Of a DNA stretch of 64,000 nucleotides, positions 44,752 through 62,255 are shown one piece after another (position 1 is the stretch's first letter; each line of letters starts with the position of its first letter). Source of the DNA: Gluconobacter cerinus (lineage in GTDB: Bacteria; Pseudomonadota; Alphaproteobacteria; Acetobacterales; Acetobacteraceae); contig NZ_BEWM01000002.1 of the NCBI RefSeq assembly GCF_002723935.1, positions 620,001 to 684,000 of the forward strand, given 5' to 3'. The position numbers and the translations under genes are program-made. The notes below the pieces were generated by a model, which was given only the letters and a program-made list of their open reading frames with translations, did not search any database and was not told the origin of the DNA.

Positions 44752-45087
44752 TTTTCTGAGAAAGGATCTTCAATTTATTAGGGTATTTTTATTCGTATTT
44801 GGTTGGTGAGTAACATCGGTTATTCCTCTTTTCAGGGAGCGGGTTTGCAGATCCGTTGAAAGGATCGTCCCGCCTTCCTGTCGCATCGCCTGCGTAACCC
44901 CTCTTGACCAGTGGATATACTGGCTCGTGCAGTAGTCTCTTCTGAATGTTCGAATGGATCGAAAGTTTCAAGGAGAACTCTTCACAAGGTGTAATACGTT
45001 AGCGTGGTAAAAAATATATTCTCCTGATGGAATAAAGGGTGGGGAAGCTACGTTGCCTTCCTGTGATGTTTGAGGCAAAGCAGACCT
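44752..45087. other. Intergenic region between kpsM and kpsE, no gene seen
   Basis: These 336 bases contain no supported gene. A 60-codon minus-strand frame at 44789-44971 has no family features. The stretch could be a scar from a lost gene, since these exporter genes are usually contiguous. Confidence 0.4.
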
Positions 45088-46251
45088 ATGGCTAAATTGT
45101 TCATCACCTCGTCTTCCAGATCCGATGCAAAATTTGGGCTTAGCATCAGACAGATAAGTGCCTGGGCCAAGCGTCGCGTGGTTTTTCTCATGATGGTGAT
45201 TCTGCCGACGCTGTTGGCTATTATCTATTATGGCCTTATCGCGTCTCCTCAATATGTCTCGCAGGCCGATTTCGTCGTTCGCGGGCAGGCGCCGCAGACC
45301 CCAGGGCTGCTGGCGGGGATTTTGTCTTCTGGCGGCGCAGCAGGTGGTAGCGAGGACACGTATGCCGTCCAAGACTACGTCATGTCGCGCGACGCAGCGC
45401 AGCTTTTGCTGAAAACGCAGGATCTCGCTAATGTTTTCGACATTTCCGAGGCAGATGCTCTGGCGCGGTTTCCGAATTTCTATTCGGGGCGTACGTTCGA
45501 GCATTTCTATCGCTACTATAAGAGGCATGTGAAAGCCGAGCTCGATACGACGACCGGCCTTTCTACGCTTACTGTTCGCACCTTCGGGGCGGCGACTTCC
45601 CAACGTATTGCCCGCTCGCTCCTTACAGCCGCTGAGCAGCTTGTCAACGAGATGAATGCGCGACAGCGCGAAAATACCATTGCAGCATCTCTGCGCGAGC
45701 GAGATGCTGCCATCAGCCGTCTGCAGGCACTTAATACCCGGATCGATGCATATCGCAATCAGACAGGCTTGCTCGATCCACAGCGTCAGTCCCTGCCGCT
45801 TCTGACCGATCTTGCCGGTCTCGATACGGCGAGAATGACCACTCGCGTACAACTCGAGCAGCTTCGGCGCTCCACGCCCAGTAGCCCTTTGATCGAGGTG
45901 CTGACACGACGACTGAGTGCGCTGGATCAGGAGATTGCCAATTCGGCGACCAAGGTGACAGGCGACGGCAAATCATTCGTGCCGAAGATCAGCAAATATG
46001 AGGATCTGGTCTTTCAACGGCAGCTTTTGGAGCGGGAAGTCAGCGCGGCTGATGCGGCGCTCGACGCTGCACGAATTCAGGCCGACCGGCAGCAGCTTTA
46101 TCTGGAAGAGATCTCCCAACCTGATCTGCCCGACTATCCCATCTATCCACGAAGTGTTGCAGACATCGCCATCGTTTTCGTAACCATGCTCGGATTGTAT
46201 TTCATTGGTGCGTTACTGGTTGCAGGTGCCCGTGAGCATAAAAGCATGTGA
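45088..46251 (+). CDS. kpsE: Capsule export inner-membrane protein (KpsE/Wzz-like, PCP family)
   Basis: The product has 387 residues. One membrane segment lies near residues 33-55 (VVFLMMVILPTLLAIIYYGLI) and a second near the C-terminus (SVADIAIVFVTMLGLYFIGALLVAG region). The large periplasmic part between is helical and coiled-coil-like (for example RLQALNTRIDAYRNQTG). This is the layout of polysaccharide co-polymerase/export adaptor proteins such as KpsE and BexC, which link the ABC exporter to the outer-membrane pore. It precedes the ATPase gene by 10 bases. The start at 45088 is preferred over 45070 for its better ribosome binding site. Confidence 0.88.
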   Translation: MAKLFITSSSRSDAKFGLSIRQISAWAKRRVVFLMMVILPTLLAIIYYGLIASPQYVSQADFVVRGQAPQTPGLLAGILSSGGAAGGSEDTYAVQDYVMSRDAAQLLLKTQDLANVFDISEADALARFPNFYSGRTFEHFYRYYKRHVKAELDTTTGLSTLTVRTFGAATSQRIARSLLTAAEQLVNEMNARQRENTIAASLRERDAAISRLQALNTRIDAYRNQTGLLDPQRQSLPLLTDLAGLDTARMTTRVQLEQLRRSTPSSPLIEVLTRRLSALDQEIANSATKVTGDGKSFVPKISKYEDLVFQRQLLEREVSAADAALDAARIQADRQQLYLEEISQPDLPDYPIYPRSVADIAIVFVTMLGLYFIGALLVAGAREHKSM

Positions 46252-46261
46252 AAGCTGACTG

Positions 46262-46909
46262 ATGTTGCAATGCATTGATCTTATAAAGGACTATCCGGTC
46301 CATGGAGGAAGGCGCCGCATACTTAACGGCGTTAATTTCACCCTTAAAAAGGGCGAAAAACTCGGGATTCTTGGGCGTAACGGTGCAGGAAAGTCGACTT
46401 TGATCCGCATCATTGGGGGGGTAGAGCACCTTACGGGGGGGAGAATCGAGCGGGATATGACTGTTTCGTGGCCCCTCGCCTTTGGGGGAGCGTTTCAGGG
46501 TAGCTTGAGCGGGTTAGATAACCTGAAATTTATTTGCCGGATCTACAATCTCGATTATGCGGATACCCGAGCTTTTGTGGATGATTTTGCCGAACTTGGG
46601 CATCAGCTTACCGAGCCTGTCAAAACTTATTCGTCAGGAATGCGGGCACGATTGGCTTTTGCCCTTTCGATCGTCATCGAGTTCGACTGTTATTTGATAG
46701 ACGAAGTAATAATGGTTGGAGATGCGCGTTTCCATGCGCGTTGCCAGGAAGAACTCTTTGGGAAGCGCGATGAACGGGCAATGATCGTTGTCTCACACGA
46801 TATGGGTTTTATGAGAGAGACGTGCAACCGAGTTGCAGTTCTTGATCAGGGGGAACTGACTCCTTACGATAGCATGGATGAAGCCATTTCTACCTACGAA
46901 TCTCTGTAG
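46262..46909 (+). CDS. kpsT: Capsule export ATPase (KpsT-like)
   Basis: The product has 215 residues, the short KpsT length. Walker A GRNGAGKST is at about 38-46, the signature is YSSGMRARLAFALSI and Walker B YLIDEVIMVGD. It powers the KpsM channel. Two G7 tracts (46415-46421 and 46435-46441), encoding IGGVEHLTGGR, lie within 27 bases and could slip; the frame is intact here. It follows kpsE closely. Confidence 0.9.
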   Translation: MLQCIDLIKDYPVHGGRRRILNGVNFTLKKGEKLGILGRNGAGKSTLIRIIGGVEHLTGGRIERDMTVSWPLAFGGAFQGSLSGLDNLKFICRIYNLDYADTRAFVDDFAELGHQLTEPVKTYSSGMRARLAFALSIVIEFDCYLIDEVIMVGDARFHARCQEELFGKRDERAMIVVSHDMGFMRETCNRVAVLDQGELTPYDSMDEAISTYESL

Positions 46910-47299: not shown

Positions 47300-48556
47300 A
47301 TGATCGTATATCCCAAGCAACGAGCTGCTATGCCGACTAATTCTCTTATAGGTTCTTCCCGGTGTTCCAGCGTTCTTGGCCTGTCGCAGGTGGCGCTTCT
47401 TCTGATACTTGGTGGGTGCTCGGCACTTCCTGACAGTGGTCCGACAGAGCGTGGCGTGCTTTCAGAAGCCCGGGATACGAAACGAAATCCGCTTGATTTT
47501 GCGGTTGTACGTCTGTCTCCCGATGTTGCAGCTATTCTGGCGGCTGAGGTGACACCACTCGTTTCGAGCCTAGATACGGCAAATAACCCACCAGCTCATA
47601 ACGACCGGATCGGCGCTGGTGACGTTCTTACGATAGCGGTTTTTGAGCTCGGCAATGGACTGTTCTCCTCCAGCGGTTCAATGTCGGCGGCAGGACAGAG
47701 TGGCGATGTCGGGGCGATCTCGCATGGAACAACGGGCGTCACGACGTCTAATCTACCTCCCACAGAGGTCGAGTCGGACGGGACGATCGCCATTCCGTAT
47801 GCCGGTCGTTTGTATGTTTCGGGTCTTACGCCTCAGCAAGCCGCCGCGTCGATCCGAGCACGCCTTATTGGCAAATCACAGAATGCGGAAGTCATGGTTC
47901 GCATCGCCAGCGATATTTCCAATACCGTTATCGTGTCTGGCTCGGTCCATCATCCGGGGCGCGTCGTGCTGAGTACGGCGCAGGAACGACTATCGGATGT
48001 AGTGGCCATCGCCGGAGGCGCGATGTATCCGCCGGAGGATACGCAAATTCAGGTTGTGCGCGGCAATCGTGCTGCCCAGACGGATCTGGGAACGCTGGAA
48101 ACATACCCTGCTGAAGATCTTCGAGCCCGGCCAGGGGACCGCCTGCATGTCGTTTATCAGCCCCGGAGCTATACGGTATTTGGAGCTGCTGGCAAGCAAG
48201 CGACGGAAGTGCGTTTTGAAACGCCGCATGTCTCCTTAGCGGAAGCGCTTGCGCGTGTTGGGGGGCCTGCGGATGAGCGGGCGGACCCGAATGCTGCGTT
48301 TCTGTTCCGCTTCGAAACTCCTGAGACTGCGCGGCGGCTAGGTCTTACGACGGCTGCGACGCCGAAAGGCGTTCCTGTCGTGTATCAGGTCGATCTGATG
48401 AGCCCGACATCCTATTTTCTGACGCAGCAGATCCCGGTAAAAAGCAAGGATGTTCTCCTCGTCGCCAATGCACGAACGAACCGTTTCTACAAATTCAACC
48501 AGCTGATCAGCACGCTGGTTAGCCCAGCAATCACGGCGGCATGGATCGCCAAGTAA
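47300..48556 (+). CDS. Outer-membrane polysaccharide export lipoprotein (Wza/KpsD-like)
   Basis: The product has 418 residues. A signal peptide with lipobox ILGGC places the lipid-bearing cysteine at about residue 40. The polysaccharide export domain begins at about 102 (RIGAGDVLTIAVFELGNGLF), and SLBB-type repeats include TVIVSGSVHHPGRVVLSTAQ and YTVFGAAGKQATEVRF. A hydrophobic helix near the C-terminus (LISTLVSPAITAAWIAK) resembles the Wza outer-membrane helix. It forms the exit pore for the capsule. The 47300 start has AAGAG about 6 bases upstream; an internal ATG at 47330 is also possible. Confidence 0.88.
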   Translation: MIVYPKQRAAMPTNSLIGSSRCSSVLGLSQVALLLILGGCSALPDSGPTERGVLSEARDTKRNPLDFAVVRLSPDVAAILAAEVTPLVSSLDTANNPPAHNDRIGAGDVLTIAVFELGNGLFSSSGSMSAAGQSGDVGAISHGTTGVTTSNLPPTEVESDGTIAIPYAGRLYVSGLTPQQAAASIRARLIGKSQNAEVMVRIASDISNTVIVSGSVHHPGRVVLSTAQERLSDVVAIAGGAMYPPEDTQIQVVRGNRAAQTDLGTLETYPAEDLRARPGDRLHVVYQPRSYTVFGAAGKQATEVRFETPHVSLAEALARVGGPADERADPNAAFLFRFETPETARRLGLTTAATPKGVPVVYQVDLMSPTSYFLTQQIPVKSKDVLLVANARTNRFYKFNQLISTLVSPAITAAWIAK

Positions 48557-48700: not shown

Positions 48701-48846
48701 CCGGCAGGTATGTGTGTGCACAGGCCTCTTTCGGGGATCTCACGTCGCGCGGGGGATGTCTGGTTGTCCTGCGGGCCATCTTTATTTCGAGAGGTCCATT
48801 CAGTTTCGTCCCTCTTTTCTTCCACGGCAATCACGAGAATGTGGTC

Positions 48847-50301
48847 ATGATTGATAATTTCGCGTTCGGCCGGGTGGCTATTATCGGCGATCTCCTGCTC
48901 GACTGTTATATCAACGGCTCTGTCGGCCGTATTTCTCCCGAGGCTCCCGTTCCAGTCCTTCTACGGGCCAATCATACTGCAGTGCCAGGAGGCGCAGCCA
49001 ATGTGGCGTTGAATGCCGCTACTCTGGGAAGCAGTGTGGCACTCGTCGGGCTAGTGGGTGACGATGAATCGGCAAATAGGCTGCGCGCGGCTCTGAGTGT
49101 TCAGCCAGGCATTGATATCAGTGGTCTTGTAGTGGACTCCGCATGGACGACGATCACCAAGACTCGTGTGCTGAGCGGGCGCCAGCAGATCGTGCGGATT
49201 GACGAGGAACGAGTTGAGACGACCGCCGCCTCTACGCGCCGCCGTCTCGTGGAGGCCAGTCAGGCCGCGATCGCTGGGGCGGATGTCGTCATCTGCTCGG
49301 ACTACGCCAAGGGCGTCCTGACGGACGAGGTTCTGGCTGCGATTTTCGAAGCCGCGAAACAGCATGGTGTTCCGGTGATCGTCGATCCCAAGCGGCGGGA
49401 TTTCACGGCTTATCGTGGTGCCGATCTCATTACGCCCAACCGGAGTGAGCTTGGCGTGGCCACAGACATGCCCTTGCGTGACGATGCGGAAATCGAACTG
49501 GCCGCACATGTTGCGTCTGAGCAATTCGGCGGCCATGTTCTGGTGACACGTTCGGAAGAAGGGATGACACTCTTCCGCCGAGACGGGCGGATTACGCATG
49601 CGCAGGTCCGTAAATCAGAGGTTTATGACGTGTCCGGAGCCGGCGATACAGTTGTGGCAACGGTGGCGAGCGTGCTTTCGGCCGGGCAGGATCTTGAGAC
49701 CGCTGTCGTTATCGCGACCAGCGCGGCGTCGATCGTCGTGGGAAAGCTTGGGACGGCGACCGTCTCGCGTGCGGAATTGAGTGCGGCGCTGATAGACGAG
49801 ATGAAAGAGGATGGAGCCATCGTTTCGCTCGAAGGCGCCCGCTCCATAATCGAGCAGTGGCATCATCATGGTGCGCGAGTGGTGTTCACCAATGGCTGCT
49901 TTGACCTTGTCCATCCGGGGCATGTCGCTCTGATCCGGGCTGCTGCGAGCCAAGGGGACAAGCTTATCGTGGCCCTTAACAGCGATACGTCCGTTCGGCG
50001 TCTGAAAGGGGAGCAGCGTCCGCTTCAGGATGAACGGGCCCGCGCGACCGTCATGGGGGCGCTGCGTGACGTCGATATGGTCGTAATCTTCGACGAGGAC
50101 ACGCCACTTGAAACCATTCAGGCTTTGCGGCCCGATGTTGTCGTCAAGGGGGCTGACTACCAAGAGCACCAGGTCGTGGGCGGGGATTTCGTAAAGTCCT
50201 ACGGTGGGTCAGTCGTTCTCGTGGATATCGTATCTGGTCGTTCCACGACGTCCATCGTTAGGAAAATGCAGACAGCACCGGCACCATCGCCTTTCATCTG
50301 A
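48847..50301 (+). CDS. hldE: Bifunctional heptose-7-phosphate kinase/heptose-1-phosphate adenylyltransferase HldE
   Basis: The product has 484 residues. The N-terminal ribokinase-type domain shows GGAANVALNAATLGS, DPKRRDFTAYRGADLITPN in two parts, and the catalytic VSGAGDTVVATVAS. The C-terminal nucleotidyltransferase domain shows FTNGCFDLVHPGHVALI. It phosphorylates D-glycero-D-manno-heptose 7-phosphate and later attaches AMP, giving ADP-heptose after GmhB acts between the two steps. The start at 48847 follows the family N-terminus; upstream open frame is unrelated. GmhB-like and HldD genes lie at the far end of the block. Confidence 0.93.
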   Translation: MIDNFAFGRVAIIGDLLLDCYINGSVGRISPEAPVPVLLRANHTAVPGGAANVALNAATLGSSVALVGLVGDDESANRLRAALSVQPGIDISGLVVDSAWTTITKTRVLSGRQQIVRIDEERVETTAASTRRRLVEASQAAIAGADVVICSDYAKGVLTDEVLAAIFEAAKQHGVPVIVDPKRRDFTAYRGADLITPNRSELGVATDMPLRDDAEIELAAHVASEQFGGHVLVTRSEEGMTLFRRDGRITHAQVRKSEVYDVSGAGDTVVATVASVLSAGQDLETAVVIATSAASIVVGKLGTATVSRAELSAALIDEMKEDGAIVSLEGARSIIEQWHHHGARVVFTNGCFDLVHPGHVALIRAAASQGDKLIVALNSDTSVRRLKGEQRPLQDERARATVMGALRDVDMVVIFDEDTPLETIQALRPDVVVKGADYQEHQVVGGDFVKSYGGSVVLVDIVSGRSTTSIVRKMQTAPAPSPFI

Positions 50302-51542
50302 TGATCCGCTCCATTGCCCGTTCATCCAAGGACACATTCATGACGGTTTCTGACAAGCTTTCCTTTTCGACCGACACGAAGAGCGCAGGCTCCGGTGAAG
50401 TCTGGAGGGACTGGCTGAGCGCGAGGGCGCTCCCGCTTTGGAGTGTTGCGGGATTCGATAGGAAGCGAAATCTTTATCATGAGCGACTAAACTGGGACGG
50501 CTGTCCTGTGCCCATGAGTGGGCTGCGCCTGATGGTACAGGCGCGCCAGATTTCGACTTATTGCCGCGCCACGCTCGACGGGTTTTACGATGCCTCCGCA
50601 CAGGCGCTGCAATGTCTCGACGTCGTTGAGCGCGCCTATCATGGCAGCGATGGGGATGCCGGGTGGGTTTTTTCCCTTGCGCCCAACGGTAAGCCTGCCG
50701 ATTCCCGACGTGATCTTTATGCTCATGCATTCATACTGTTCGCCTATGGGTGGGCAATTCGGCTGACCGGGGAAGAACGATACCGGAAAATCGCCCGTCA
50801 GACGGCGGAAGAGGTGGAGCGTATCTTTGCCGCGCCCGACACGGGTTATCTCGATACGGTCCCTTCCACGGATTCCCTGCGGCGGCAAAATCCGCACATG
50901 CACCTGCTCGAAGCCTATCTCGTCCTGTTCGAAGCCACAGGAGACGAGTATTACCTTGATAGGCTGCGCGGTCTGATGACGCTCACGCGGAACCATCTTC
51001 TCGACCGGCGCTCCGGCCTGCTCCTAGAGTTCTTCGATTCTTCTTGGAAGCCGTTGGAACCCGCATCCCGTAATCGTGTTGAGCCCGGCCATCTGTTCGA
51101 ATGGGCATGGCTGATCGGCGAATATGAGCGGCTCGTCTCTCCGTCGGGAGAGGATATGGCTGGGCTGAGGGATGTGACGGAGCGGCTGTTCCGTTCCGGC
51201 CTGTCACTCGGGACCGACCCGAAGACGGGATTCGTCTTCGACGCGATGACCGAGGATGGAGTTGTTTTCGAGCGGATGACGCGGATTTGGCCGCAGACAG
51301 AACTCCTTCGCCTGCTGTGCACGCATCATGTTTCGGGTAAACGGGAGAGCATCTCAGCTCACGATCTGGGCACGACATTTCTCGCACGATTTGCTCCGTC
51401 ACGCCTCGCCGGTGGATGGATAGACCGTTTCGACGAGGTTGGTTCGCCGTTGGTGGACTACATGCCCGCCAGTTCGCTCTATCATATTTATGGCGCGGCG
51501 CGGCTGCTTTCGGGCTGTGTGCCGGAGACGGGTCATGGCTGA
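50301..51542 (+). CDS. AGE-family epimerase/isomerase
   Basis: The product has 413 residues from an ATG that overlaps the hldE stop by one base; an ATG at 50340 with AAGGA upstream is an alternative giving 400 residues. The (alpha/alpha)6 barrel family is seen in LPLWSVAGFDRKRNLYHERL, DLYAHAFILFAYGWAIRLTG, NPHMHLLEAYLVLFEATGD and RVEPGHLFEWAWLIGEY, including the histidines that act in N-acylglucosamine 2-epimerase and mannose isomerase. These enzymes interconvert aldoses and ketoses or epimerise at C2. Position directly after hldE suggests it makes or recycles a sugar for the heptose polymer, but the substrate is not deducible. Confidence 0.82.
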   Translation: MIRSIARSSKDTFMTVSDKLSFSTDTKSAGSGEVWRDWLSARALPLWSVAGFDRKRNLYHERLNWDGCPVPMSGLRLMVQARQISTYCRATLDGFYDASAQALQCLDVVERAYHGSDGDAGWVFSLAPNGKPADSRRDLYAHAFILFAYGWAIRLTGEERYRKIARQTAEEVERIFAAPDTGYLDTVPSTDSLRRQNPHMHLLEAYLVLFEATGDEYYLDRLRGLMTLTRNHLLDRRSGLLLEFFDSSWKPLEPASRNRVEPGHLFEWAWLIGEYERLVSPSGEDMAGLRDVTERLFRSGLSLGTDPKTGFVFDAMTEDGVVFERMTRIWPQTELLRLLCTHHVSGKRESISAHDLGTTFLARFAPSRLAGGWIDRFDEVGSPLVDYMPASSLYHIYGAARLLSGCVPETGHG

Positions 51543-52419
51543 GATACGCAAAAGCACGGCGAAAAAGACAGGTCGATCCGCCGCGACGGACACATTCCCG
51601 GCGCATGTGCTAGCCTTTCTGGATAGGCTCACGGATGGCGCGGGCAAGGCGCTCCTCGCCCGGATCAATAGTCAGAATGCGGACATGGAGGCGATTGTAC
51701 GCGAGATCGCCTCAGGCGCAGCCGTAGAAGAGCTTGCCAAACTCGCCCGGACAGGAACAGACGCGGACGGCATCGCGTGGGTCACGCAGGCGGATTACGA
51801 TTATGTCGGCCTGCCCTCCGAAGCGGCGGACTGCGATTTTAGGTCGGGATTCGACATCTATCTGCGTGAGCGTCTCGGCAAGCGCGCCGACGGGTTTGCG
51901 ACAATTTTTGAAGCGCTTGACCAGCACGAAGCGCCCTTCATTATCGAGACCGGATGCCTGCGTGTGCCGCGCAACTGGGACGGCGATGGGCAGAGTACTT
52001 TTCAGTTCGACTGGTATGCGCGCGAAAGGCGGGGGCGGGTCATAACCATCGACGTCAATCCCCAGAGCATTGACAGTGCTCGCCGTGCGTGTAGCAGCGT
52101 CACTAGCACCATCCTCAACGATTCCGTCGCCACTCTCGACGCTCTGGGCGCGGCTGGTATGGGGCCAGCGGCCTTGATCTATCTCGATTCCTTCGATCTG
52201 GACCTCGATAATCCGATGCCTAGCGCCATTCATCACTCCATGGAACTGATGGCCGCGCGTCGTCTTCTTGGCCCAGGAACGATCCTGTGCATCGACGATT
52301 TTGACGTCGCGCCGCTGGGGCCGGGCGGCAAGGGGCTGATCGTCGACCGGTTCTTCGATACGATCCGCGCGGAGGTTCTTTACTCAGGATATCAGAAAGT
52401 GTGGCGCATCTCCGTATAA
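51535..52419 (+). CDS. SAM-dependent methyltransferase-like protein
   Basis: The product has 294 residues and overlaps the preceding gene by 8 bases. After a basic N-terminus and a helical region, a Rossmann-type core shows FIIETGCLRVPRNW in place of motif I, then GRVITIDVNPQSIDSARRA (acidic loop binding SAM ribose) and AALIYLDSFDLDLDN. The later GTILCIDDFDVAP is also methyltransferase-like. It is probably a class I methyltransferase acting on a sugar or lipid in this locus. A Gly-poor motif I (ETGCLR) is unusual. The start at 51535 is chosen because upstream open frame overlaps the AGE gene deeply. Confidence 0.7.
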   Translation: MAEIRKSTAKKTGRSAATDTFPAHVLAFLDRLTDGAGKALLARINSQNADMEAIVREIASGAAVEELAKLARTGTDADGIAWVTQADYDYVGLPSEAADCDFRSGFDIYLRERLGKRADGFATIFEALDQHEAPFIIETGCLRVPRNWDGDGQSTFQFDWYARERRGRVITIDVNPQSIDSARRACSSVTSTILNDSVATLDALGAAGMGPAALIYLDSFDLDLDNPMPSAIHHSMELMAARRLLGPGTILCIDDFDVAPLGPGGKGLIVDRFFDTIRAEVLYSGYQKVWRISV

Positions 52420-52437: not shown

Positions 52438-53766
52438 TCAGGGGTGCTTCATTGGCGCCCGCATGACATCGGCGTAAAATGCTTTCAGCCGTATTTGATA
52501 GCAACTCATGTCAAAGCGTGCCGCTTGGTTGGGCCCTGCGGCGCGCAGCGCAGCGCAGAGTGAGTCGTCCCTGTCCAACCGCTCGATGGCCGCTGTGATC
52601 TGCGGAATGTCATATGCATCCACGGTTAGGACTGCATCTCCACCGACTTCCGGAAGGGCGCCCTCGCATGAGGTCATGACGGGCGTGCCGAGTGTCATAG
52701 CTTCTATGACCGGGAGGCCGAAACCTTCCGCTAGAGAGGGAAACAGCAATGCACGTGCACCACGCACGAGCGTCATTAGGTCCCGCTCCGGCAGATATTC
52801 CATGCGAATTACCCGTCCGGTATTCAGGCAGCGCTCGAGCAGCCTGAGTTCGCCTGTCGCCTTCCAGGCCATCGCGCCCACGATGACCAGCGGCCGCTCA
52901 GCGGACGATGAGAGCATTGCTTCCAGAAGGCGGCCAATGTTCTTTTTCGGCTCGATCGAACCGAAAAACAGGTAGTAACCGTCCCGACGTAGGCCATAAA
53001 GCCGTTCGAGAACATCCTTCAGCGTTTCCTCGTTGATTTTCAGAGAGGCCGCGGGACTGCGGATTGTCTGATACGTGTTGTGAACGAGCGGTGCGACCTG
53101 GGAAGAAAATGCGATGATATCGCGCTTCGAAGCCTCGGAGACCGTGCAGATCGCGTCCGCGTGCCGGCAAAGATCCGTCATCAGGCGAAAATAATAGCTC
53201 TTATCGTCGAGCGTAGCGTGCGGCAGCCGCAAAGGGACAAGGTCATGGACCGTATAGACGTTTCGTGCGCCCCTGACGCGGATCGGGAAAGGATAGGTCC
53301 AGTGCATCACGTCAGGCGTTACCGGTAGATTCACCGTCATGAAACGGCGTGTGGCCCGGTAGCGCTGCGCAGCGACGAAAAAGAGATCCCGCGCGTTTAA
53401 CAACTGGTCGAAGGCCGGCATGCGTTCGCTAAAGGAACGGGCGTCAATCTGTGAGTCTGCAGGTACCGTCTGGGCCGTGCATCCTGTCAAAGTGCTGCGC
53501 TGACGTGCTTTCCAGCGTTCCGACAGGAAGCTGGCCTTCGTCTTTGGCTCTTCTTCGCCCAGCCGGTCATAAAACAGGACTTCCCGGAGGGCGGCGGGCG
53601 TATGGGAAGGAATGTTAAAGCCATAAAGCACGTCGACCTGCGCAGACATTCCCTTCAGAGCCTCACTCAGGGTTCTGGCGTAGGTAGCGACACCTGTCCC
53701 GCGGGGAAGAGCGAGATTGAAACCATCAAGGGTCACATGGAAAGGGGGTGATACGGCAACGGTCAT
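52438..53766 (-). CDS. GT4-family glycosyltransferase
   Basis: The product has 442 residues. The C-terminal GT-B domain shows FFGSIEPKKNIGRLLEAM, LVIVGAMAWKATGE and the GT4 ExxxxxxxE motif in AEGFGLPVIEAMTLGTPVM. The N-terminus is FNLALPRGTGVATYARTLSEAL, as in mannosyl- or rhamnosyl-type GT4 enzymes. It is the only gene in the polysaccharide block on the minus strand, converging with the methyltransferase gene. It would add a residue to the growing glycan in the cytosol. Donor is unknown. Confidence 0.88.
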   Translation of the reverse strand: MTVAVSPPFHVTLDGFNLALPRGTGVATYARTLSEALKGMSAQVDVLYGFNIPSHTPAALREVLFYDRLGEEEPKTKASFLSERWKARQRSTLTGCTAQTVPADSQIDARSFSERMPAFDQLLNARDLFFVAAQRYRATRRFMTVNLPVTPDVMHWTYPFPIRVRGARNVYTVHDLVPLRLPHATLDDKSYYFRLMTDLCRHADAICTVSEASKRDIIAFSSQVAPLVHNTYQTIRSPAASLKINEETLKDVLERLYGLRRDGYYLFFGSIEPKKNIGRLLEAMLSSSAERPLVIVGAMAWKATGELRLLERCLNTGRVIRMEYLPERDLMTLVRGARALLFPSLAEGFGLPVIEAMTLGTPVMTSCEGALPEVGGDAVLTVDAYDIPQITAAIERLDRDDSLCAALRAAGPNQAARFDMSCYQIRLKAFYADVMRAPMKHP

Positions 53767-54225: not shown

Positions 54226-56433
54226 ATGGTAAAGATGGGAAAGTTCCTTGAGGTCGTCCGGCGTCGTTCGGGCGCGCGCTTGCAGCCGGATAAGACAGCA
54301 GGTTCTCGGAACCAGGATAGGACCTCTTCGTCCATTGACGCCGATTCCATACGGGTACTCGCCAAGGAAGCCGAACAGGGCAAGAAGCTGGCGCTGGCCG
54401 TTCTGTATTACAAGAAAATCATAGAACTTTGGGGTGAAACTCCAGAGCTGTGGATCTCCATTGCGCGGCTTCAGCGCGATATGGGTCGATACGACGCATC
54501 TCGCGACAGCTTGGACAAGGCTCTGCGGATCGAGCCCGGCAATGTGCAGATTCACTTTGAGTGGGGCGAACTCGAGTTTTGCCAGAAGCACTACCTTCAG
54601 GCCATTCAGCATTATGACAGCGCGCTTCTTCTTCACCCCGGCTGGCCCTTAGCGGCTGCTCGACGCGCCGATGTCAAGGCACAGATGGTTTTTGAGAAAA
54701 AACGCGATTTCGAGGATGAACGCGAGAAGATCGCTCAGGCTGCCCAGCTCGACGCACTGAACCGTCTGGATGTGGATCAGCGGATCGACCCCGCGCTTTT
54801 TCATCCCACCCGACATGAACTAACGCAAAATCATTCTCCTCAGTTCGTACGCACCTTCAATGGCGTTTATCAAAGAACGCGCTGGGGTGCCGGCGACGTG
54901 GTGCGCGGTGTAGGAAGCCTGCGCGGCCATATTCTCTCGATTGTGCCCTATCATCACATCGAGATCTATATCGACGGACAGCTTGTGCACGAAGGACCGC
55001 TGACCGTCGGGCCGGTACAGAACGAACAATCAGATGAGCGTTTGCGCAAATACGCTTACAATGTGTGGGTTGATTTTTCGCGCTTCTCATTCGGATGGCA
55101 TAAAATCTACTATCGAGCAGTCGGCACCGGGAACAGCGTCGAGGTCAATATCAACTGGCGTATCGACGATATTATCGTGGACGCTCCCATTGCCGACGGA
55201 TTTTTCCAAGATGCGACGGCGCGCGTACCTGTCGCCGGTCTTGATCCGTCCCGTTCCCTTGTCGAGCAGGTGCGGGCCCTGCCTACAGTCGTTTCCGAGG
55301 CGAGCCCCAATTCCTATCCCGGCCCCATACGCAACGTCGCCATTCTCAGGCTTGATGGTTTGGGTGATGTTGCTGTCTCAGTGCCATTCTTCCTGCATGT
55401 GAGGAAGCTTCTTCCTTCGGCCAGACTAGTCGTTCTCGCGTCGGCGGATAATGCCGATGGCTGCCGGGCACTTGAGATTTTTGATGAGGTCATCGAGATT
55501 GATTTCCCGGAAAATCCTTATGAACAGGGCCGATATCTAACCGAAGATCAGCAGCTTGAACTTATGGAGCAACTCGCTTCCTACAAGTTCGATCTGGCGA
55601 TCACCGGCATGGTAAGCGACAGGCCGAGGCAGCTTTCAGTGATGACTGGCGCCCCGGTGACTATCGGCTTTGACGGTGAAGATCACAAAACCCTTAACAT
55701 TTATTACACCTCGCGCGACGCAATTTCTGGCGCAAATATCCTTAACTATGCCGCCCGATATGGGCTTCTGGCCAAGGCACTGGAAGTGTGGCTCGATAGT
55801 GGCGCACGTGTTCAGCGGCGCGATGACCTGAGCCGTGACTTATTACGGCTTTACGGAATTGGACCTAATGACGATTTCGTTGTCATGCATACAGGTTCGC
55901 GCATCAAGGCTACGGAATGGCCAGGTTATACCGAACTTGCCAACCGAATTGTCGAGCAGATGGGACTGAAGGTTGTATATATTGCTCATGATGAGAGCCA
56001 GCGCCCAAATCTTTCCGAAGAAGCTCTTTTAGATGGACGGATCATCTTTTTGGCTGGCTTGATTCCGTTCGATCACTTTGATGCATTCTTGTCTTACTGT
56101 TCAAGCTTTGTAGGCAATGATAGCGGCCCGGGTCATCTTGCCACTCTGCGGGGCGCGAAAGCCGTCAGAATACTTTCTGCACGTCTAGGCGCAACCGAAT
56201 GGAAATCCGAGCTAGCGGGTGTGTGCCTCTACCGGCGCGTCCCCTGCGCGGGATGTGGCCCAATTCCCATCTCTCGTCAGGAGGAGTGCACTTACGACAT
56301 CGCATGCGTGAAAGATATTACTGTCGACGAGGTGTTCTTCCAGGTCGCTAAACAGATTGCACGCCCGGATAATGCGCCAGAGACCTCCACCGAGTCACCA
56401 ACACCCGTCCTCGCATTAGGAGACATGGCATGA
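54226..56433 (+). CDS. TPR-containing GT9-family (heptosyltransferase-like) glycosyltransferase 1
   Basis: The product has 735 residues. Residues about 47-150 are TPR repeats (ELWISIARLQRDMGRYDASR; QIHFEWGELEFCQKHYLQAI). About 195-325 is a beta-rich module containing GDVVRGVGSLRGHILSIVP. About 345-715 is a GT9 domain with LRLDGLGDVAVSVPF, HTGSRIKATEWPGY and FVGNDSGPGHLATLRGA. A four-cysteine motif near the end reads RVPCAGCG, then C and C with spacing C-x2-C-x10-C-x5-C. GT9 enzymes move heptose or related sugars from ADP donors, which the nearby hld genes would supply. It is followed by a paralogue whose start overlaps this stop by four bases. Confidence 0.85.
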   Translation: MVKMGKFLEVVRRRSGARLQPDKTAGSRNQDRTSSSIDADSIRVLAKEAEQGKKLALAVLYYKKIIELWGETPELWISIARLQRDMGRYDASRDSLDKALRIEPGNVQIHFEWGELEFCQKHYLQAIQHYDSALLLHPGWPLAAARRADVKAQMVFEKKRDFEDEREKIAQAAQLDALNRLDVDQRIDPALFHPTRHELTQNHSPQFVRTFNGVYQRTRWGAGDVVRGVGSLRGHILSIVPYHHIEIYIDGQLVHEGPLTVGPVQNEQSDERLRKYAYNVWVDFSRFSFGWHKIYYRAVGTGNSVEVNINWRIDDIIVDAPIADGFFQDATARVPVAGLDPSRSLVEQVRALPTVVSEASPNSYPGPIRNVAILRLDGLGDVAVSVPFFLHVRKLLPSARLVVLASADNADGCRALEIFDEVIEIDFPENPYEQGRYLTEDQQLELMEQLASYKFDLAITGMVSDRPRQLSVMTGAPVTIGFDGEDHKTLNIYYTSRDAISGANILNYAARYGLLAKALEVWLDSGARVQRRDDLSRDLLRLYGIGPNDDFVVMHTGSRIKATEWPGYTELANRIVEQMGLKVVYIAHDESQRPNLSEEALLDGRIIFLAGLIPFDHFDAFLSYCSSFVGNDSGPGHLATLRGAKAVRILSARLGATEWKSELAGVCLYRRVPCAGCGPIPISRQEECTYDIACVKDITVDEVFFQVAKQIARPDNAPETSTESPTPVLALGDMA

Positions 56434-58445
56434 GCGCAACGATCAGCGCAGGCAAATGGCGCAGCGAAGTTCAGAAAATGGCGGACGAGGCTCGGGACGG
56501 TGGAGACTACCTTGCCGCCGCCGAACTCTACGAAAAAGTCATAGCTCTTGGAGGGCCGTCGTCCATTTCAATGGCTGCTGGGCATATGCGCAAGGAGGCC
56601 AAGGACTTTGTTGCGGCTGAACGGCATTATCAGAACGTCCGCGAGGCCAATCCTGATGACCCGGAAATTTACATGCAGCTCGGGCATTTCTACAAAACGG
56701 TTGGCCGGTATGGCGATGCCCAACACCATTACATGCGGGCAATGCAGAATCATTATCCCAATTTCGACGAAGTCAGGCACGAGCTTCGCGCAATTCATGA
56801 AAGCGAGGAGCTTTCCCGCGAGCAGGAGCGGTGTGATTCCCTTGAAGACGCAGACTTCAAGGGGCTCGTCTCGGAGCGGCTGTTCCCAAGGCAGCTCGAC
56901 CAGCTTCAGCGGGACTATCATGAGACCTTCACCATTTCGCGTCTTGGCAACCACCGCAAGACAAGCTCGGGAAAAGGCCGTGTGATCCGCGGTGTTGACG
57001 CGGTGCGCGGTCATGTCATCACGTCAATGCCGTGCGACAGCATCGACATTTTCCTTGATGACGAGCTAATTTACTCCGCACCTTTGCAGGTCGTTCCGTT
57101 GCGTTGGGAAAAAAACCGCTCCAACCTGCGCAAATACGTCTTCAATGCCTGGATTGATTTCAGTGATTTCCCTGTCGGGAAGCACGAGATCGTCCTATTC
57201 GCGAACCCCCTTCAGGGCGAGCCGCGTGAAGGCATCGAATGGAAACGTGAGACAATCCTCGTCGCCGAGCGACTGCCGGAAGGATTCGATGAGCAGAGTC
57301 CTGCCCTGATTCCGCCGCTGGACCCTGAGTCACCACTAACGGTAGTCGAACAGGTCAACCGCCTCCCGAGCCTTGTGCGAAAAGTCACGCCAGGATCCTT
57401 CCCGGGCAAGCTCGATACGATCGCGATCATCAGACCTGATCAACTCGGGGATATGGTTATTACGCTGCCGGCAGTACGGCGTATCAGGGAACTTGCGCCT
57501 AAATCCCGGATCGTTGGTCTTCTCAGCCCTGCCAATGCCGATCTGGCGGCTACGCTTGGAGTGTTCGATGATATTGTCGTCATTCGTTTTCCTGATGACA
57601 AGTATCAGGACAGGCGTGTCATGGACAAGCGTGCGCAGGAAGCATTTGCAGCGCAGTGCAAGCCCTATAACTTCGACCTCGCGATCGACTTCCTCTACAG
57701 TGAGCATGCCAACAAACTGCTCCCTCTGACCGGGGCGCCGGTCACCATGACCGTCGCGCGCTCTGACCAAGTCGAAGATCTGGAGGTTGTTTTTGACGCC
57801 CGTTCACCGAATGGCGGCCTAAGTCTCTCCCCCATGGCGCATACGGCCCGCGCTCGCGCGCTCTCGGAAGCACTTGGGCTCTGGCTGGATAATAACGCGC
57901 GTCCTCTCCCCCGGACCAAGCCGAACGCCGAGCCTCTGGCCCGGTACGGCCTGTCCGAGAATGACCGTTATGTCGTCTTGCATACCGGATCGAGCTTCGC
58001 CCAGTTTCTTCGCTGGCCCCATTATCCCGAATTGACGGCACGGCTCCTAAGGGCTGGATACAAGGTCGTCTACATGGGCAGTGACGAACAGCAAAAGGCA
58101 CGCCTCTCCAACGAAGCCCGTGAGGATGGGCGGATCGTCTATCTCGACCGGAAGATCCCGTTCGACGACCTCGATGCGCTGCTCTCCTGTGCCTCACTGA
58201 TGATCGGCAACGATTCCGGCCCCAAGCACTGGGCGAGTCTTCGCGGGACACGGGTTGTTAGCCTTCATCCGGGCCGCGACGACCTGCGCGAATGGGGACA
58301 GGTCTTCGGCGGCGTGGTACTTGCTCGCCGGGTGCCCTGCGCGGGCTGTGGCATACGTTATGACGAAACGGAATGCGGTCAGGACTTCGCTTGCATCAGA
58401 CAGATCACCATCGAAGAGGTACTCCGGGAGGCTCTGTCTCCATAA
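56430..58445 (+). CDS. TPR-containing GT9-family glycosyltransferase 2
   Basis: The product has 671 residues and the same three-part layout: TPR-like repeats at about 18-125 (AAELYEKVIALGGPSSISMA; EIYMQLGHFYKTVGRYGDAQ), a beta-rich module at about 170-285 (GRVIRGVDAVRGHVITSMP) and a GT9 domain at about 305-670 (IRPDQLGDMVITLPAV; HTGSSFAQFLRWPHY; MIGNDSGPKHWASLRG). The cysteine motif is VPCAGCG with spacing C-x2-C-x8-C-x5-C. Its ATG overlaps the stop of the first copy, so translation is coupled. Similarity to copy 1 is clear but diverged, suggesting different acceptors or linkages. Confidence 0.85.
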   Translation: MSATISAGKWRSEVQKMADEARDGGDYLAAAELYEKVIALGGPSSISMAAGHMRKEAKDFVAAERHYQNVREANPDDPEIYMQLGHFYKTVGRYGDAQHHYMRAMQNHYPNFDEVRHELRAIHESEELSREQERCDSLEDADFKGLVSERLFPRQLDQLQRDYHETFTISRLGNHRKTSSGKGRVIRGVDAVRGHVITSMPCDSIDIFLDDELIYSAPLQVVPLRWEKNRSNLRKYVFNAWIDFSDFPVGKHEIVLFANPLQGEPREGIEWKRETILVAERLPEGFDEQSPALIPPLDPESPLTVVEQVNRLPSLVRKVTPGSFPGKLDTIAIIRPDQLGDMVITLPAVRRIRELAPKSRIVGLLSPANADLAATLGVFDDIVVIRFPDDKYQDRRVMDKRAQEAFAAQCKPYNFDLAIDFLYSEHANKLLPLTGAPVTMTVARSDQVEDLEVVFDARSPNGGLSLSPMAHTARARALSEALGLWLDNNARPLPRTKPNAEPLARYGLSENDRYVVLHTGSSFAQFLRWPHYPELTARLLRAGYKVVYMGSDEQQKARLSNEAREDGRIVYLDRKIPFDDLDALLSCASLMIGNDSGPKHWASLRGTRVVSLHPGRDDLREWGQVFGGVVLARRVPCAGCGIRYDETECGQDFACIRQITIEEVLREALSP

Positions 58446-58548
58446 TGCGCGTCCACCTTGGGCCGGCGCTGGCCTTAATCCAGCCGGCACCGGCCTTTCA
58501 ATGCGGGTTCCAGCATGGAATCTGGGACGAAAAAGAAAGTTTTGAAGC

Positions 58549-60357
58549 ATGACGGGGGTGTACACCGTTCCGGACGACGTCGAACGTCTTCCGGGTCTGA
58601 CATCCGACCGGAATATAGGGCATCGCGACCTGTATACTGACGAGGACGCGCTTTTTCCCCATCTGTCGCAGCAGGCAGGCCCGACCCGCGCGGCGGCCCT
58701 GCTTGATGGTGTCATTTTCCACCATGTCGGCTGGCTGGCCAAGCAGTTGATTGCATGGTCGCGGAACGGGAACCCGCTTGTCGGGCCCGTTCTCCGTCCG
58801 CTGGGGAATTCCGTTGCTGCCCTTTTGGCTGTGAGCCGGACACGCTTTTCGATTGTCCAAATCGGCTGGATGAAAACCAGAATGGGCGTGCCGGTCCTTT
58901 CCGGCGTGGTGGCGTTCCGTGTGCTCGTTCATTCGCGCCACGACCTTACGGAGGTGCTGGCCTGCTCGGACGACACAGGAGAGGTCATTGGCCGCATTAC
59001 CCCGGTACGCCTGACGACGATCGGCGCTGTATCCACCTGGTCGGCCAATCTCTGGATCGATACGTCCTGTCTCAGGACAGGCCGACAGAAGATTCATGTT
59101 CGCGCTTGGGCCGGCTCGCGTCTAGCCGGGCAGATGCGTCGCTTCGTCATGGTGCAGAACGAGGATACGACCCTGCACGCGGTCCCCGATGCGGTGCAGT
59201 CTTCTTCTTACATCCAGTCGCCCGACTCCCCGACGGATGATGCTACGTCTTGGGTGCTCTCGCGCCCGGTCGAGCGCCATCACCCTCCGGGTGCTCTGTT
59301 CTCAGGCCCTGTAAACTCGATCCTCGTCCTGCGAACCGACCAGCTTGGTGACGTCGCCGCTTCGCTTCCCGCGATGGCCCGCCTCAGGAAACTTTTCCCT
59401 CAGGCCCACGTGACCATGCTTCTTCAGAAGGCCAATGTGCCTGTAGCCCGCGCCTCGGGTGTTGCGGACGAGTATCTTGACCTGACACTGCGCTACGATT
59501 CAAAGACAGAACGCCGCTATCTCGACGCAGAGGCGGACGCCCATCTGCGCACCCAGCTTCGCGGGCGCAGCTTCGATCTGGCTATCGACCTCTCCCCTGG
59601 TGCTGAAAGTCAGCACCTTCTCCTTCTTTGCTCGGCACGCCGTCGGGTGGGCTTTAAGCCCGAGCAGTTTCCGTTCCTTGACTTCGGAATCGAGGTGATA
59701 TCCCGCGAGGTAATTAACCGTAAGCCTGTCATATCCCACGCCGCCCATGTTGAACTCCTTGTCTCTTCCCTTGGGCAACTTATGGACCAGCGGCGTGAAG
59801 TTGTTCCTCGCCGTGAACCTGCCCCATCGCAACTGGGCATGACGCGTCTTCGCGATCGCCCTATCATCGTCCATTCAGGCGCGCGCCATCCTATCAATCG
59901 GTGGCCGATCGAGAATTTCCTGCAACTCTGCGGCGTCCTTGCGGCAGCTAGTGGGCGCGAGGTTCTGTTTTTCGTTGACGGTCATGCGCTTAACGATGCA
60001 GTACGCTCACGTTGTACCGAACTCCCTGGCGTGACGCTCATGGACTGCCTGCCGATGGATGCATTCGATGCCCTGGTCGCGAGCGCCGTTCTGTTCGTGG
60101 CTAATGATACCGGCCCCAAACATTTGGCTGCTGCACGCGGTGTCCCGGTCGTAAGTATTGCCATTCCTCGTTTGAATTGGGAAGAATGGGGACAGAATCA
60201 GGGGGGCGTGATCCTCTCTCGTACTGTTCCATGTGCGGGATGCGGACTAAATAACCGTGATGCTTGTGGGCGGGATGCAGCGTGCATTACCACAATATCT
60301 GTCGAGACCGTTCTCAAGGTCGCACTGGACGTGTTCGAACAGTCGAAGACCGAATAA
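58549..60357 (+). CDS. GT9-family glycosyltransferase 3, without TPR repeats
   Basis: The product has 602 residues. It lacks clear TPR repeats but keeps a related beta-rich module at about 100-210 (LSGVVAFRVLVHSRHDLTEV; WSANLWIDTSCLRTGRQKIH) and the GT9 domain at about 245-600 (LRTDQLGDVAASLPAMARL; HSGARHPINRWPIENF; FVANDTGPKHLAAARG). The cysteine motif is VPCAGCG with spacing C-x2-C-x7-C-x5-C. It begins 103 bases after copy 2. Loss of the TPR part sets it apart from its two neighbours; it may initiate or cap the chain, but this is inference. Confidence 0.82.
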   Translation: MTGVYTVPDDVERLPGLTSDRNIGHRDLYTDEDALFPHLSQQAGPTRAAALLDGVIFHHVGWLAKQLIAWSRNGNPLVGPVLRPLGNSVAALLAVSRTRFSIVQIGWMKTRMGVPVLSGVVAFRVLVHSRHDLTEVLACSDDTGEVIGRITPVRLTTIGAVSTWSANLWIDTSCLRTGRQKIHVRAWAGSRLAGQMRRFVMVQNEDTTLHAVPDAVQSSSYIQSPDSPTDDATSWVLSRPVERHHPPGALFSGPVNSILVLRTDQLGDVAASLPAMARLRKLFPQAHVTMLLQKANVPVARASGVADEYLDLTLRYDSKTERRYLDAEADAHLRTQLRGRSFDLAIDLSPGAESQHLLLLCSARRRVGFKPEQFPFLDFGIEVISREVINRKPVISHAAHVELLVSSLGQLMDQRREVVPRREPAPSQLGMTRLRDRPIIVHSGARHPINRWPIENFLQLCGVLAAASGREVLFFVDGHALNDAVRSRCTELPGVTLMDCLPMDAFDALVASAVLFVANDTGPKHLAAARGVPVVSIAIPRLNWEEWGQNQGGVILSRTVPCAGCGLNNRDACGRDAACITTISVETVLKVALDVFEQSKTE

Positions 60358-60512: not shown

Positions 60513-61514
60513 ATGCGCAAACGTATCATTGTAACTGGTGCCGCCGGCTTTATCGGCAGTAATATTGTGCGAGGACTTAATGCTCGCGGGTATACCAATA
60601 TTATCGCAGTCGATAATCTCGCAAAATCGGAGAAATTTCATAATCTCGTTGATCTTGGAATTAGCGACTATGTGGACAAGACGACATTTTACGATTCTTT
60701 TGCGGCAGGAAAGTTCGGTTCGGTAGACGCCATTTTCCACGAGGGTGCGTGTTCCGATACGATGGAGCATGACGGTCGCTACATGCTGGCCAATAACTAT
60801 GCTACGAGCAAGATGTTGCTCGATACCTGCGCTTCTTCGGGCACGCGCTTGCTGTATGCGTCCAGCGCCGCGACCTATGGTGGCTCATCGCAATTCATCG
60901 AGGATCCTCGATTCGAGCGTCCGTTGAATGTATACGGCTATTCGAAACTGCTTTTCGATCAGGTTGTCCGTCAGTCTCTGCCGCGGATCCGGAGTCAGGT
61001 TGCAGGATTTCGTTACTTTAACGTTTATGGTCCGCATGAGCAGCATAAAGGACGTATGGCGTCGGTCGCGTATCACCAATTCAACCAGTTCCGTGCGGAC
61101 GGAAAGGTCAAGCTGTTCGGCTCTTATGACGGTTACGCACCTGGCCAGCAACTTCGTGATTTTGTCTATGTTGACGATGTCGTGGCGGTCAATCTCTGGT
61201 TTTTTGATAATCCAGGACAGAGCGGTGTTTTCAACCTCGGTTCCGGGCGGGCGCAGGCGTTTAATGACGTGACCCATGCGGTGGTGAATAGCTTGCGCAG
61301 CGCACAGGACCAGCCCGCTATTACGCTGGAGCAGATGGTCAGTAACGGGATTTTGGAATATATTGACTTTCCCCAAGCTCTGATGGGTAAATACCAGAGC
61401 TTCACACAGGCCGATCTGACGTGCCTGCGCGCCACCGGTTGCGACCATGTATTTGCTGATGTCGCAGCAGGAGTCTCGGACTATGTCCGGTTTCTGTTAA
61501 CTAAAGAGTCCTGA
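60513..61514 (+). CDS. hldD: ADP-glyceromanno-heptose 6-epimerase
   Basis: The product has 333 residues. The NADP-binding motif is [16 protein letters not shown], the catalytic Tyr-Lys pair lies in [11 protein letters not shown], and the Ser/Thr active region in [12 protein letters not shown]. Family marks [15 protein letters not shown] and [19 protein letters not shown] are clear. It converts the D,D to the L,D form of ADP-heptose, the donor used by heptosyltransferases. It lies downstream of the GT9 genes with a 155-base gap. Confidence 0.95.
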
Positions 61515-61646: not shown

Positions 61647-62255
61647 ATGCCGCACGGTAGTAATGTCATGCTGGTGCGGCGGCCGATCGCTCCTGGCACG
61701 CCAGCGCTGTTTCTGGATCGAGACGGCGTCGTCAATATCGATACGGGCTATCTCGCGGACCCAGAAAGCGTGACGCTTCGCGATGGCGCCGCGACGATGA
61801 TCGCGGCCTTCAATGCTGCGGCTTGGCCGGTAGTTATCGTCTCAAACCAGAGCGGTCTCGGTCGCGGTTATTTCGACCTGTGCACCATGCTGGCTGTGCA
61901 GGAACAGATCGAGGTATTGCTTCTGCACGAAGGAGCATATGTCAACGCCGTGTTTCTCTGCGGCACAGCCCCTAACGATGTCAGCCCCCTTGCCGAATGG
62001 CGTAAGCCGGCACCAGGAATGTTGACGACAGCGGGGCAGTTGTATGACATTGATCTGACGCGAAGTGTGCTGGTGGGCGACAAGATCACTGACATGCAAG
62101 CTGCTGCCGCCGCCGGATTGCTTCTGGGTTTTCTAGTTGATGATGGCTTTGTCGCAGACATCCAGACAGTTCCGTTTCCGATTCACACCGTAGATCATTT
62201 GGCGGATATTTCCCCTGCCGCTTTACTCTCATGGCAAACCCTTGAAAGCTCGTAG
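61647..62255 (+). CDS. gmhB: GmhB-like heptose-1,7-bisphosphate phosphatase without the zinc loop
   Basis: The product has 202 residues. It is a HAD phosphatase with ALFLDRDGVVNIDTGYLADP (nucleophile Asp), VVIVSNQSGLGRGYFD and the C-terminal SVLVGDKITDMQAAAAAG. These match GmhB and the related HisB-N group. GmhB removes the C7 phosphate between the two HldE reactions. The zinc loop with three or four Cys/His residues usual in GmhB is not present: the segment before WRKPAPGML holds just one Cys. Its placement after hldD supports the heptose role. gmhA was not found in the window. Confidence 0.82.
   Translation: MPHGSNVMLVRRPIAPGTPALFLDRDGVVNIDTGYLADPESVTLRDGAATMIAAFNAAAWPVVIVSNQSGLGRGYFDLCTMLAVQEQIEVLLLHEGAYVNAVFLCGTAPNDVSPLAEWRKPAPGMLTTAGQLYDIDLTRSVLVGDKITDMQAAAAAGLLLGFLVDDGFVADIQTVPFPIHTVDHLADISPAALLSWQTLESS

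Follow-up and report, generated by a model that had tools for sequence, protein, structure and literature searches.

A conserved tandem of three GT9 glycosyltransferases with a shared middle module and a four-cysteine finger in a heptose and polysaccharide-export locus of Gluconobacter cerinus

GT9 glycosyltransferases are best known for the addition of a single heptose to the core of lipopolysaccharide (LPS), and the enzyme OGT joins N-terminal tetratricopeptide repeats (TPRs) to a C-terminal glycosyltransferase (GT) domain and acts on a protein acceptor. We describe here three GT9 proteins, named P1, P2 and P3, which are encoded head to tail in a 64,000-nucleotide stretch of the Gluconobacter cerinus genome (contig NZ_BEWM01000002.1, positions 620,001 to 684,000; hereafter the window). 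Three kinds of described enzymes can be compared with them. The autotransporter heptosyltransferases (BAHTs) TibC and AAH share with P1–P3 a GT-B heptosyltransferase domain with a four-cysteine finger in its C-lobe; the TibC finger (C339/342/358/370) holds iron, and TibC also has an extra beta domain ahead of the GT, a plan which really resembles the module-GT9-finger plan of P1–P3. FlmG has, like P1 and P2, N-terminal TPRs, which recruit flagellin to the C-terminal GT (PMC7591256), but its acceptor is a protein, its sugar is pseudaminic acid and its genomic setting is different. Finally, in the TagF-like ABC-dependent capsule polymerases Cps3D, Cps7D and Cps1B, TPRs are fused to transferase domains acting on an ABC-exported glycan, and are involved in oligomerisation in one case and needed for linker elongation in others (PMC5974469, PMC11666461); catalysis is there ensured by TagF-like and GT-A or GT-B domains, whereas P1 and P2 have a GT9 domain, the finger and an unassigned module.

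A first-pass annotation of the window had reported three tandem GT9 proteins with a common middle module and a four-cysteine tail, two of them with TPRs, and this is confirmed by open frames, Pfam matches, alignment and cysteine positions (Table 1). Glyco_transf_9 (PF01075) is found in P1, P2 and P3 with 41.2, 54.1 and 56.5 bits, for a Pfam cut-off of 22; TPR families are found in P1 and P2 and none in P3, and the start of P2 overlaps the stop of P1 by 4 bases. A TagF-like catalytic domain is not found, the Pfam matches of P1–P3 at E 0.01 being to GT9 and TPR families only (one of them TPR_Slam). P1 and P2 are 34% identical over 668 aligned columns, nearly their full length, and P2 and P3 are 31% identical over 440 aligned columns; by BLAST, P3 can be matched to P1 and P2 from a point inside the module up to the C-terminus, and in the multiple alignment the likeness takes in the module as a whole. 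These identities, together with the invariant finger cysteines, indicate that the likeness between the three proteins is not due to chance. Their near-double length was also noted correctly, LPS heptosyltransferases of WaaC/WaaF type being about half as long. The triple-gene observation is real and, as described below, conserved.

The trio lies among genes for polysaccharide export and ADP-heptose synthesis. An ABC-dependent (group 2) capsule set is present at the locus, with KpsM, KpsT, KpsE (whose model match is below cut-off) and Wza/KpsD-type genes, and the gene order HldE, AGE (acylglucosamine 2-epimerase family), conserved protein, GT4, P1, P2, P3, HldD, GmhB is identical in Gluconobacter aidae and Gluconobacter sphaericus, whose proteins are 93–94% identical to P2. 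As HldD adjoins the trio, ADP-L,D-heptose is suggested as the donor. The G. cerinus genome (3.58 Mb, 49 contigs) has three copies of HldE, one of them stand-alone on contig 4, and a second HldD elsewhere. Taken together, the export genes, the ADP-heptose genes and the presence of three distinct GT9s point to a stepwise, cytoplasmic assembly of a heptose glycan followed by ABC export. We therefore consider it probable, with some reserve as to donor, acceptor and order of action, that P1–P3 assemble a heptose-containing, ABC-exported, capsule-type glycan.

The association with export genes recurs among relatives. A whole-protein alignment, with two GT9 peptide patterns, was scanned over the genomes of 84,980 species and gave 400 stretches, of which 219 are relatives; the best 80 correspond to 69 loci, namely 36 with the module, 32 of a related long class, and L053, which carries HldE, AGE, ABC ATPase, Wza and GT4 and was left out, its GT9 frame having probably been lost to overlap filtering. 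With the overlapping loci L044/L056, L046/L054 and L045/L048 counted once each and L063 moved to the long class, there are 33 module contigs, which do not amount to 33 genomes, as the two members of each of the pairs L036/L061, L038/L043 and L042/L058 come from one genome or metagenome-assembled genome (MAG). HldE is found on 18 of them, AGE on 15, GmhB on 12, KpsE and ABC-2 on 11 each, ABC ATPase and Wza on 10 each, and HldD and GT4 on 9 each; these counts are lower bounds, many contigs ending inside the searched 10 kb. At least one of KpsE, ABC-2 and Wza is present on 14 of the 33 module contigs and at none of the 32 long-class loci (Fisher p 2e-5, kinship ignored), 14 of which have HldE and one AGE. 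P3 is directly followed by HldD and GmhB in three further genomes of Gluconobacter (L028, L029, L034). The triple arrangement itself, i.e., two TPR proteins and a true P3, is found on 7 of the 33 contigs (L028, L029, L032, L034, L037, L044/L056, L046/L054) and in genome G136; the short frames first labelled P3 in L037, L039, L040, L041, L043, L047 and L050 are GT9s without an aligned module (their match begins at P3 residue 227 or later) and are not true P3.

Carriers of the module are Acetobacteraceae, Sphingomonas, Sphingopyxis, Methylobacteriaceae MAGs, Bosea, Roseiarcus and Paracraurococcus MAGs, Caulobacteraceae MAGs and, in Burkholderiaceae, Pararobbsia alpina. Of 200 genomes from the same family, 6 carry the P2 module, G. 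cerinus being one of them, and a 50-row module profile finds, among 385 genomes sampled over the class, only the G. cerinus one. This patchy spread suggests horizontal transfer; a search of plasmid DNA gave no match. In a GT9-domain tree (98 rows, quickly built, with SH-aLRT support only, and leaving out 8 short rows and 6 BAHTs without a hidden Markov model hit), P1 falls into one group with proteins from Pararobbsia, Komagataeibacter melaceti and Gluconobacter wancherniae (SH-aLRT 97), and the proteins encoded next to these in each of the three genomes group with P2 (SH-aLRT 99). As the P1 and P2 groups span the same genomes, the P1/P2 pair is probably older than its arrival in them. P3 proteins form a separate group of Acetobacteraceae and sphingomonads (SH-aLRT 99), and P3 is thus not a shortened P1 or P2. 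The branches of WaaC and WaaQ are very long, so the family is not rooted. A hydrophobic stretch is seen in P3-type proteins, with a best 19-residue mean of 1.2–1.8 in 8 of the 11 Acetobacteraceae ones, of 0.15, 0.51 and 1.11 in the other three, and of 0.45–0.86 in four sphingomonad ones; this is too weak to claim that a membrane anchor replaces the TPRs in P3.

Two other forms were met in this survey. L051, L055, L064 and L071 encode single proteins of 1061–1132 residues, with a long N-terminal part ahead of the module and GT9 (weakly TPR-like in L064, the one scanned), which stand near the base of the P3 branch and are perhaps an ancestral or a fused form. The long class (L063, L065–L070, L072–L096) consists of GT2-GT9 proteins of 1342–1696 residues where complete, mostly from Acetobacteraceae, with HldE beside 14 of 32. 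They share with P1–P3 a related GT9 domain and the finger, which is here C-x2-C-x7-C-x5-C, but they carry a GT2-like domain ahead of GT9 (L067, L079 and L080 were scanned) and adjoin no export genes; their BLAST matches to P3 begin at residue 201 or later, so that the module is not aligned.

The catalytic residues of heptosyltransferases are conserved in the trio. D13, D261 and H266 of WaaC correspond in the alignment to D381, D632 and H637 of P1, D341, D595 and H600 of P2, and D268, D520 and H525 of P3, and in 57 aligned sequences, those of the window included, D13 is kept in 57 and D261 and H266 in 56 each. All three proteins thus contain the catalytic Asp13 and the D(T/S)(G/A)xxH motif, which is described as the consensus signature of heptosyltransferases in PMC3559599. 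WaaC, WaaF and WaaQ share with P1–P3 the GT9 domain and the equivalents of these three residues, but WaaC, WaaU, WaaQ and the available part of WaaF of Escherichia coli K-12 have neither TPRs nor module nor finger. The LPS heptosyltransferase models and solved structures match P1–P3 only distantly, and the trio does not consist of close homologues of known LPS core enzymes. P1–P3 are most likely heptosyltransferases.

The finger has exactly the spacing first described, C-x2-C-x7–10-C-x5-C beginning in VPCAGCG, with the cysteines C674/677/688/694 in P1 (2/10/5), C637/640/649/655 in P2 (2/8/5) and C562/565/573/579 in P3 (2/7/5), and all four are invariant in the 57-sequence alignment. It is found neither in the E. 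coli enzymes above nor in two short GT9s of the G. cerinus genome. A resemblance to the iron finger of TibC had been suggested, and the same genome allows a direct comparison: it encodes six complete BAHTs and a fragment of a seventh, which all exceed the cut-off of TIGR04414 (568–629 bits for the complete ones), and the exact 2/15/11 spacing of TibC is found in all six complete ones. By profile comparison of the P1–P3-type GT9 domain with these BAHTs, the four cysteines are in register (hhalign probability 54, E 1.2e-4; probability 6 for P3-type proteins alone), although the spacing, 2/15/11 versus 2/7–10/5, differs. The BAHTs lack the D..H motif kept in P1–P3, TIGR04414 does not match P1–P3 at E 0.01, and, unlike BAHTs, two of the three proteins have TPRs and no autotransporter is found among the scanned frames of the window. 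These comparisons indicate that P1–P3 are not TibC/BAHT enzymes and, as they nevertheless carry the finger, that it occurs in certain branches of GT9 and is not in itself a mark of protein heptosylation. A metal-binding role is plausible; the finger would brace the C-lobe and may aid oligomerisation.

The middle module can be aligned in P1–P3 and their relatives, and four of its columns (G, G, W, D) do not vary over 50 sequences. The GxVxRGVxxxRGHxxxxxP pattern by which it was first recognised is present in P1 and P2, but not in P3, which has the homologous but degenerate GVPVLSGVVAFRV. WaaC and WaaQ of E. coli align without it, its profile matches none of 177635 PDB sequences at E up to 10, the P2 module has no Pfam match, and the Pfam matches of 50 members are weak and scattered, the most frequent, in 4 of 50 each, being those to the TcfC E-set domain (best E 0.0032) and to ArgoL1 (best E 0.012). 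The module thus appears to be an extra rather than a normal part of GT9. It matches no catalogued family and would be a separate accessory domain, perhaps binding the chain or a partner; the TcfC and ArgoL1 matches are at most a hint of an Ig/E-set, and hence perhaps beta-sandwich, fold. Its identity with the TibC barrel has no support in the sequence, the probability of the module against the BAHT profile being 0.2.

The AGE gene which follows HldE in the window may bear on the first step of heptose synthesis. Its product matches GlcNAc_2-epim with 202 bits, its PDB relatives include cellobiose 2-epimerases and YihS, and H201, H264 and H395, which we take to be the catalytic histidines, are invariant in 17 of 17 sequences. 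Among the 195 of 200 family genomes that have HldE, 99 have a GmhA-like protein only, 69 AGE only, 8 both and 19 neither (Fisher p 8e-26, kinship ignored); with one genome per genus, the figures are 46, 36, 6 and 11 of 99 (p 4e-11). GmhA-like is defined here by a cut at E 1e-20, only 2 of the 200 genomes being above the curated cut-off of the model, and presence was scored over all 78 AGE genomes. In 6 of 14 genera picked by eye (g4, g19, g31, g72, g76, g99), one species has GmhA only and another AGE only. The AGE and HldE genes are no more than 3 kb apart in at least 29 genomes, a lower bound obtained with 63 of the 84 AGE sites and 59 HldE sites, from 58 genomes. Among 21 named genomes with a module locus, a GmhA-like protein above 25 bits is absent from 17 and present in 4 (G202, G205, G206, G208). 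Given this near mutual exclusion, a replacement of GmhA by AGE is the simplest interpretation, and the pattern suggests AGE as a candidate non-orthologous sedoheptulose-7-phosphate isomerase. The 19 genomes with neither, at the thresholds used, argue against it, as does the G. cerinus genome itself, which has a GmhA-like protein on contig 6 in addition to AGE (171.8 bits, cut-off 209); for that reason, AGE as the sole such isomerase of this strain is rejected. In the literature searched, which covers few subscription papers, no paper joins acylglucosamine 2-epimerase, heptose and gmhA; among the matches listed, one (PMC13078787) mentions a 2-epimerase as well as HldE.

Several results weigh against the assembly of a heptose-containing, exported glycan by P1–P3. 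The NCBIfam LPS heptosyltransferase models match P1–P3 only far below their cut-offs, and in the alignment K192 of WaaC, which contacts O5/O6 of the heptose (PMC3559599), is replaced by T, L and N, and E222 by D, D and G, in P1, P2 and P3, respectively, so that the donor, or the stereochemistry, could be another one. According to PMC3559599, conservation across all the enzymes compared there is limited to Asp13 and His266, and K192 and E222 would thus not be defining features of heptosyltransferases. The available part of 10 of the 33 module contigs, some of them cut by a contig end, shows neither HldE nor KpsE/ABC-2/Wza. Two KpsC/KpsS-family (PF05159) frames, whose presence in the genome favours the proposal, are located on another contig (C5, 62.5–64.6 kb) beside other glycosyltransferases, so they may serve another polymer. 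Lastly, among the literature matches listed for Gluconobacter heptose or capsule export and for GT9 with capsule, no glycan structure or biochemistry is given for this locus. The replaced K192 and E222 would also fit a GT9 fold using another sugar nucleotide, the heptose genes serving other nearby enzymes, and, with three HldE copies in the genome, the supply of heptose does not depend on this locus alone. We nevertheless hold such a change of donor to be unlikely, given HldE on 18 of the 33 module contigs and the genes directly after P3 in the other Gluconobacter genomes. The conserved Asp/Asp/His residues could alternatively mark unusually long heptosyltransferases of the LPS core or the O-antigen, and GT9 with HldE, HldD and GmhB is the usual supply of the LPS core. 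This role appears rather improbable, as the two short GT9s of the genome (307 and 314 residues; L001, L002) look like ordinary core enzymes, the stand-alone HldE and the second HldD lie elsewhere, the export genes of the locus are capsule-type, and homologous loci exist in Sphingomonas, a group which is not known to have LPS.

The first-pass annotation proposed either a heptose-polymer synthase or the heptosylation of a protein or carrier. In the latter case, P1–P3 would be protein O-heptosyltransferases, whose TPRs would recruit a protein, in the manner of OGT or FlmG, and whose GT9 domain would add heptose to it as TibC and AAH do on autotransporters. Protein heptosylation probably exists in this bacterium, which has, besides its BAHTs, AIDA-like frames with O-heptosylation target repeats, one of them beside a second HldE-AGE pair, and the aligned finger cysteines would agree with it. 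The comparison with BAHTs given above speaks against it, as do the lack of any adhesin-like match among the 20 frames (33.3–62.3 kb) of the window scanned with Pfam and the recurring linkage to polysaccharide-export genes, and we judge protein modification by P1–P3 to be quite unlikely. The polymer synthase, GT9s in a heptose locus with capsule-export genes, is close to what we propose, and the initial interpretation is thus partly supported.

For the exported heptose glycan that we favour, the following steps can be envisaged. HldE, HldD and the GmhB-like phosphatase would make the ADP-heptose donor, with AGE or GmhA catalysing the first step. P1, P2 and P3 would be cytoplasmic enzymes working in sequence, or with P1 and P2 alternating, the TPRs of P1 and P2 holding, by analogy with other ABC-dependent capsule polymerases, partners, the growing chain or each other. 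P3, which lacks TPRs, may be responsible for the first residue or for a branch. The upstream ABC-2, ABC ATPase, KpsE and Wza-type machinery would then export the glycan as a capsule-like polysaccharide. A bolder version, in which the locus is a self-contained heptose-capsule factory, with a TPR-GT9 polymerase pair, a TPR-less GT9 partner, a new domain, a metal finger and AGE acting instead of GmhA on sedoheptulose 7-phosphate, can only be put forward tentatively.

Table 1. Features of the trio, of its locus and of the BAHTs of the same genome; positions are those of the window unless contigs are named.
Feature	Position	Strand	Basis
P1: TPR, middle module, GT9 and cysteine finger, 735 residues	54226..56433	+	open frame, Pfam, cysteine positions, alignment
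P1 TPR region, residues ~42–138	54349..54639	+	TPR_2 and related models
P1 middle module with linker, residues 200–356	54823..55293	+	alignment
P1 four-cysteine finger, C-x2-C-x10-C-x5-C	56245..56307	+	cysteine positions
P2: TPR, middle module, GT9 and cysteine finger, 671 residues	56430..58445	+	open frame, Pfam, alignment
P2 TPR region, residues ~17–112	56478..56765	+	TPR_19, TPR_14; matches to TPR proteins of solved structure
P2 middle module with linker, residues 160–316	56907..57377	+	alignment
P2 four-cysteine finger, C-x2-C-x8-C-x5-C	58338..58394	+	cysteine positions
P3: middle module, GT9 and cysteine finger, no TPR, 602 residues	58549..60357	+	open frame, Pfam, alignment
P3 middle module with linker, residues 93–243	58825..59277	+	alignment
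P3 four-cysteine finger, C-x2-C-x7-C-x5-C	60232..60285	+	cysteine positions
ABC-2 membrane subunit of polysaccharide exporter, KpsM-like by position	43957..44751	+	Pfam ABC2_membrane
BexC/CtrB/KpsE-family inner-membrane export protein	45070..46251	+	TIGR01010 261 bits, below cut-off 437.5; no Pfam match
ABC ATPase, KpsT-like by position	46262..46909	+	Pfam ABC_tran
Outer-membrane polysaccharide export protein, Wza/KpsD-like	47300..48556	+	Poly_export, SLBB
HldE, bifunctional heptose kinase/adenylyltransferase	48712..50301	+	TIGR02198 and TIGR02199 above cut-off
AGE-family epimerase/isomerase, candidate GmhA replacement	50301..51542	+	GlcNAc_2-epim; gmhA anti-correlation
Conserved protein, putatively methyltransferase-like (by eye)	51439..52419	+	no Pfam/NCBIfam match
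GT4 glycosyltransferase	52438..53766	-	Glycos_transf_1
HldD, ADP-heptose 6-epimerase	60513..61514	+	TIGR02197 417 bits, above cut-off
GmhB-like heptose 1,7-bisphosphate 7-phosphatase	61647..62255	+	PRK08942 130 bits, below cut-off 178
BAHT complete frames L005, L008, L009, L010, L011, L012 and fragment L007	own-genome contigs C21, C11, C4, C2:284.6 kb, C14, C8		

Some neighbouring features may be added. The conserved protein between AGE and GT4 resembles by eye an S-adenosylmethionine methyltransferase, and related genes are present in the G. aidae, G. sphaericus and Gluconacetobacter takamatsuzukensis loci. O-heptosylation target repeats are above cut-off in the frames beside L005 and L007, and the frame beside L008 is without them. 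On contig 26 (L108, 6.8 kb), another AGE gene stands beside HldE, and the pair adjoins an AIDA-like adhesin frame with such repeats (TIGR04415).

No such trio is described in the titles and abstract openings of the literature matches listed for TPR with heptosyltransferase, GT9 with capsule, and Gluconobacter heptose or capsule export. These GT9 glycosyltransferases, whose architecture was not found described in the literature searched, appear as a variant form belonging to an ABC-dependent polysaccharide locus. If the proposed role is true, GT9 would serve for ABC-exported polysaccharides as well, through modular enzymes equipped with TPRs, and the finger of TibC-type enzymes would be a wider feature of GT9 and no mark of protein heptosylation. 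Heptose synthesis is studied both as a target for antibacterials and for the innate immune signals that arise from it, and the mutual exclusion of AGE and gmhA would offer a simple and directly testable second route into it.

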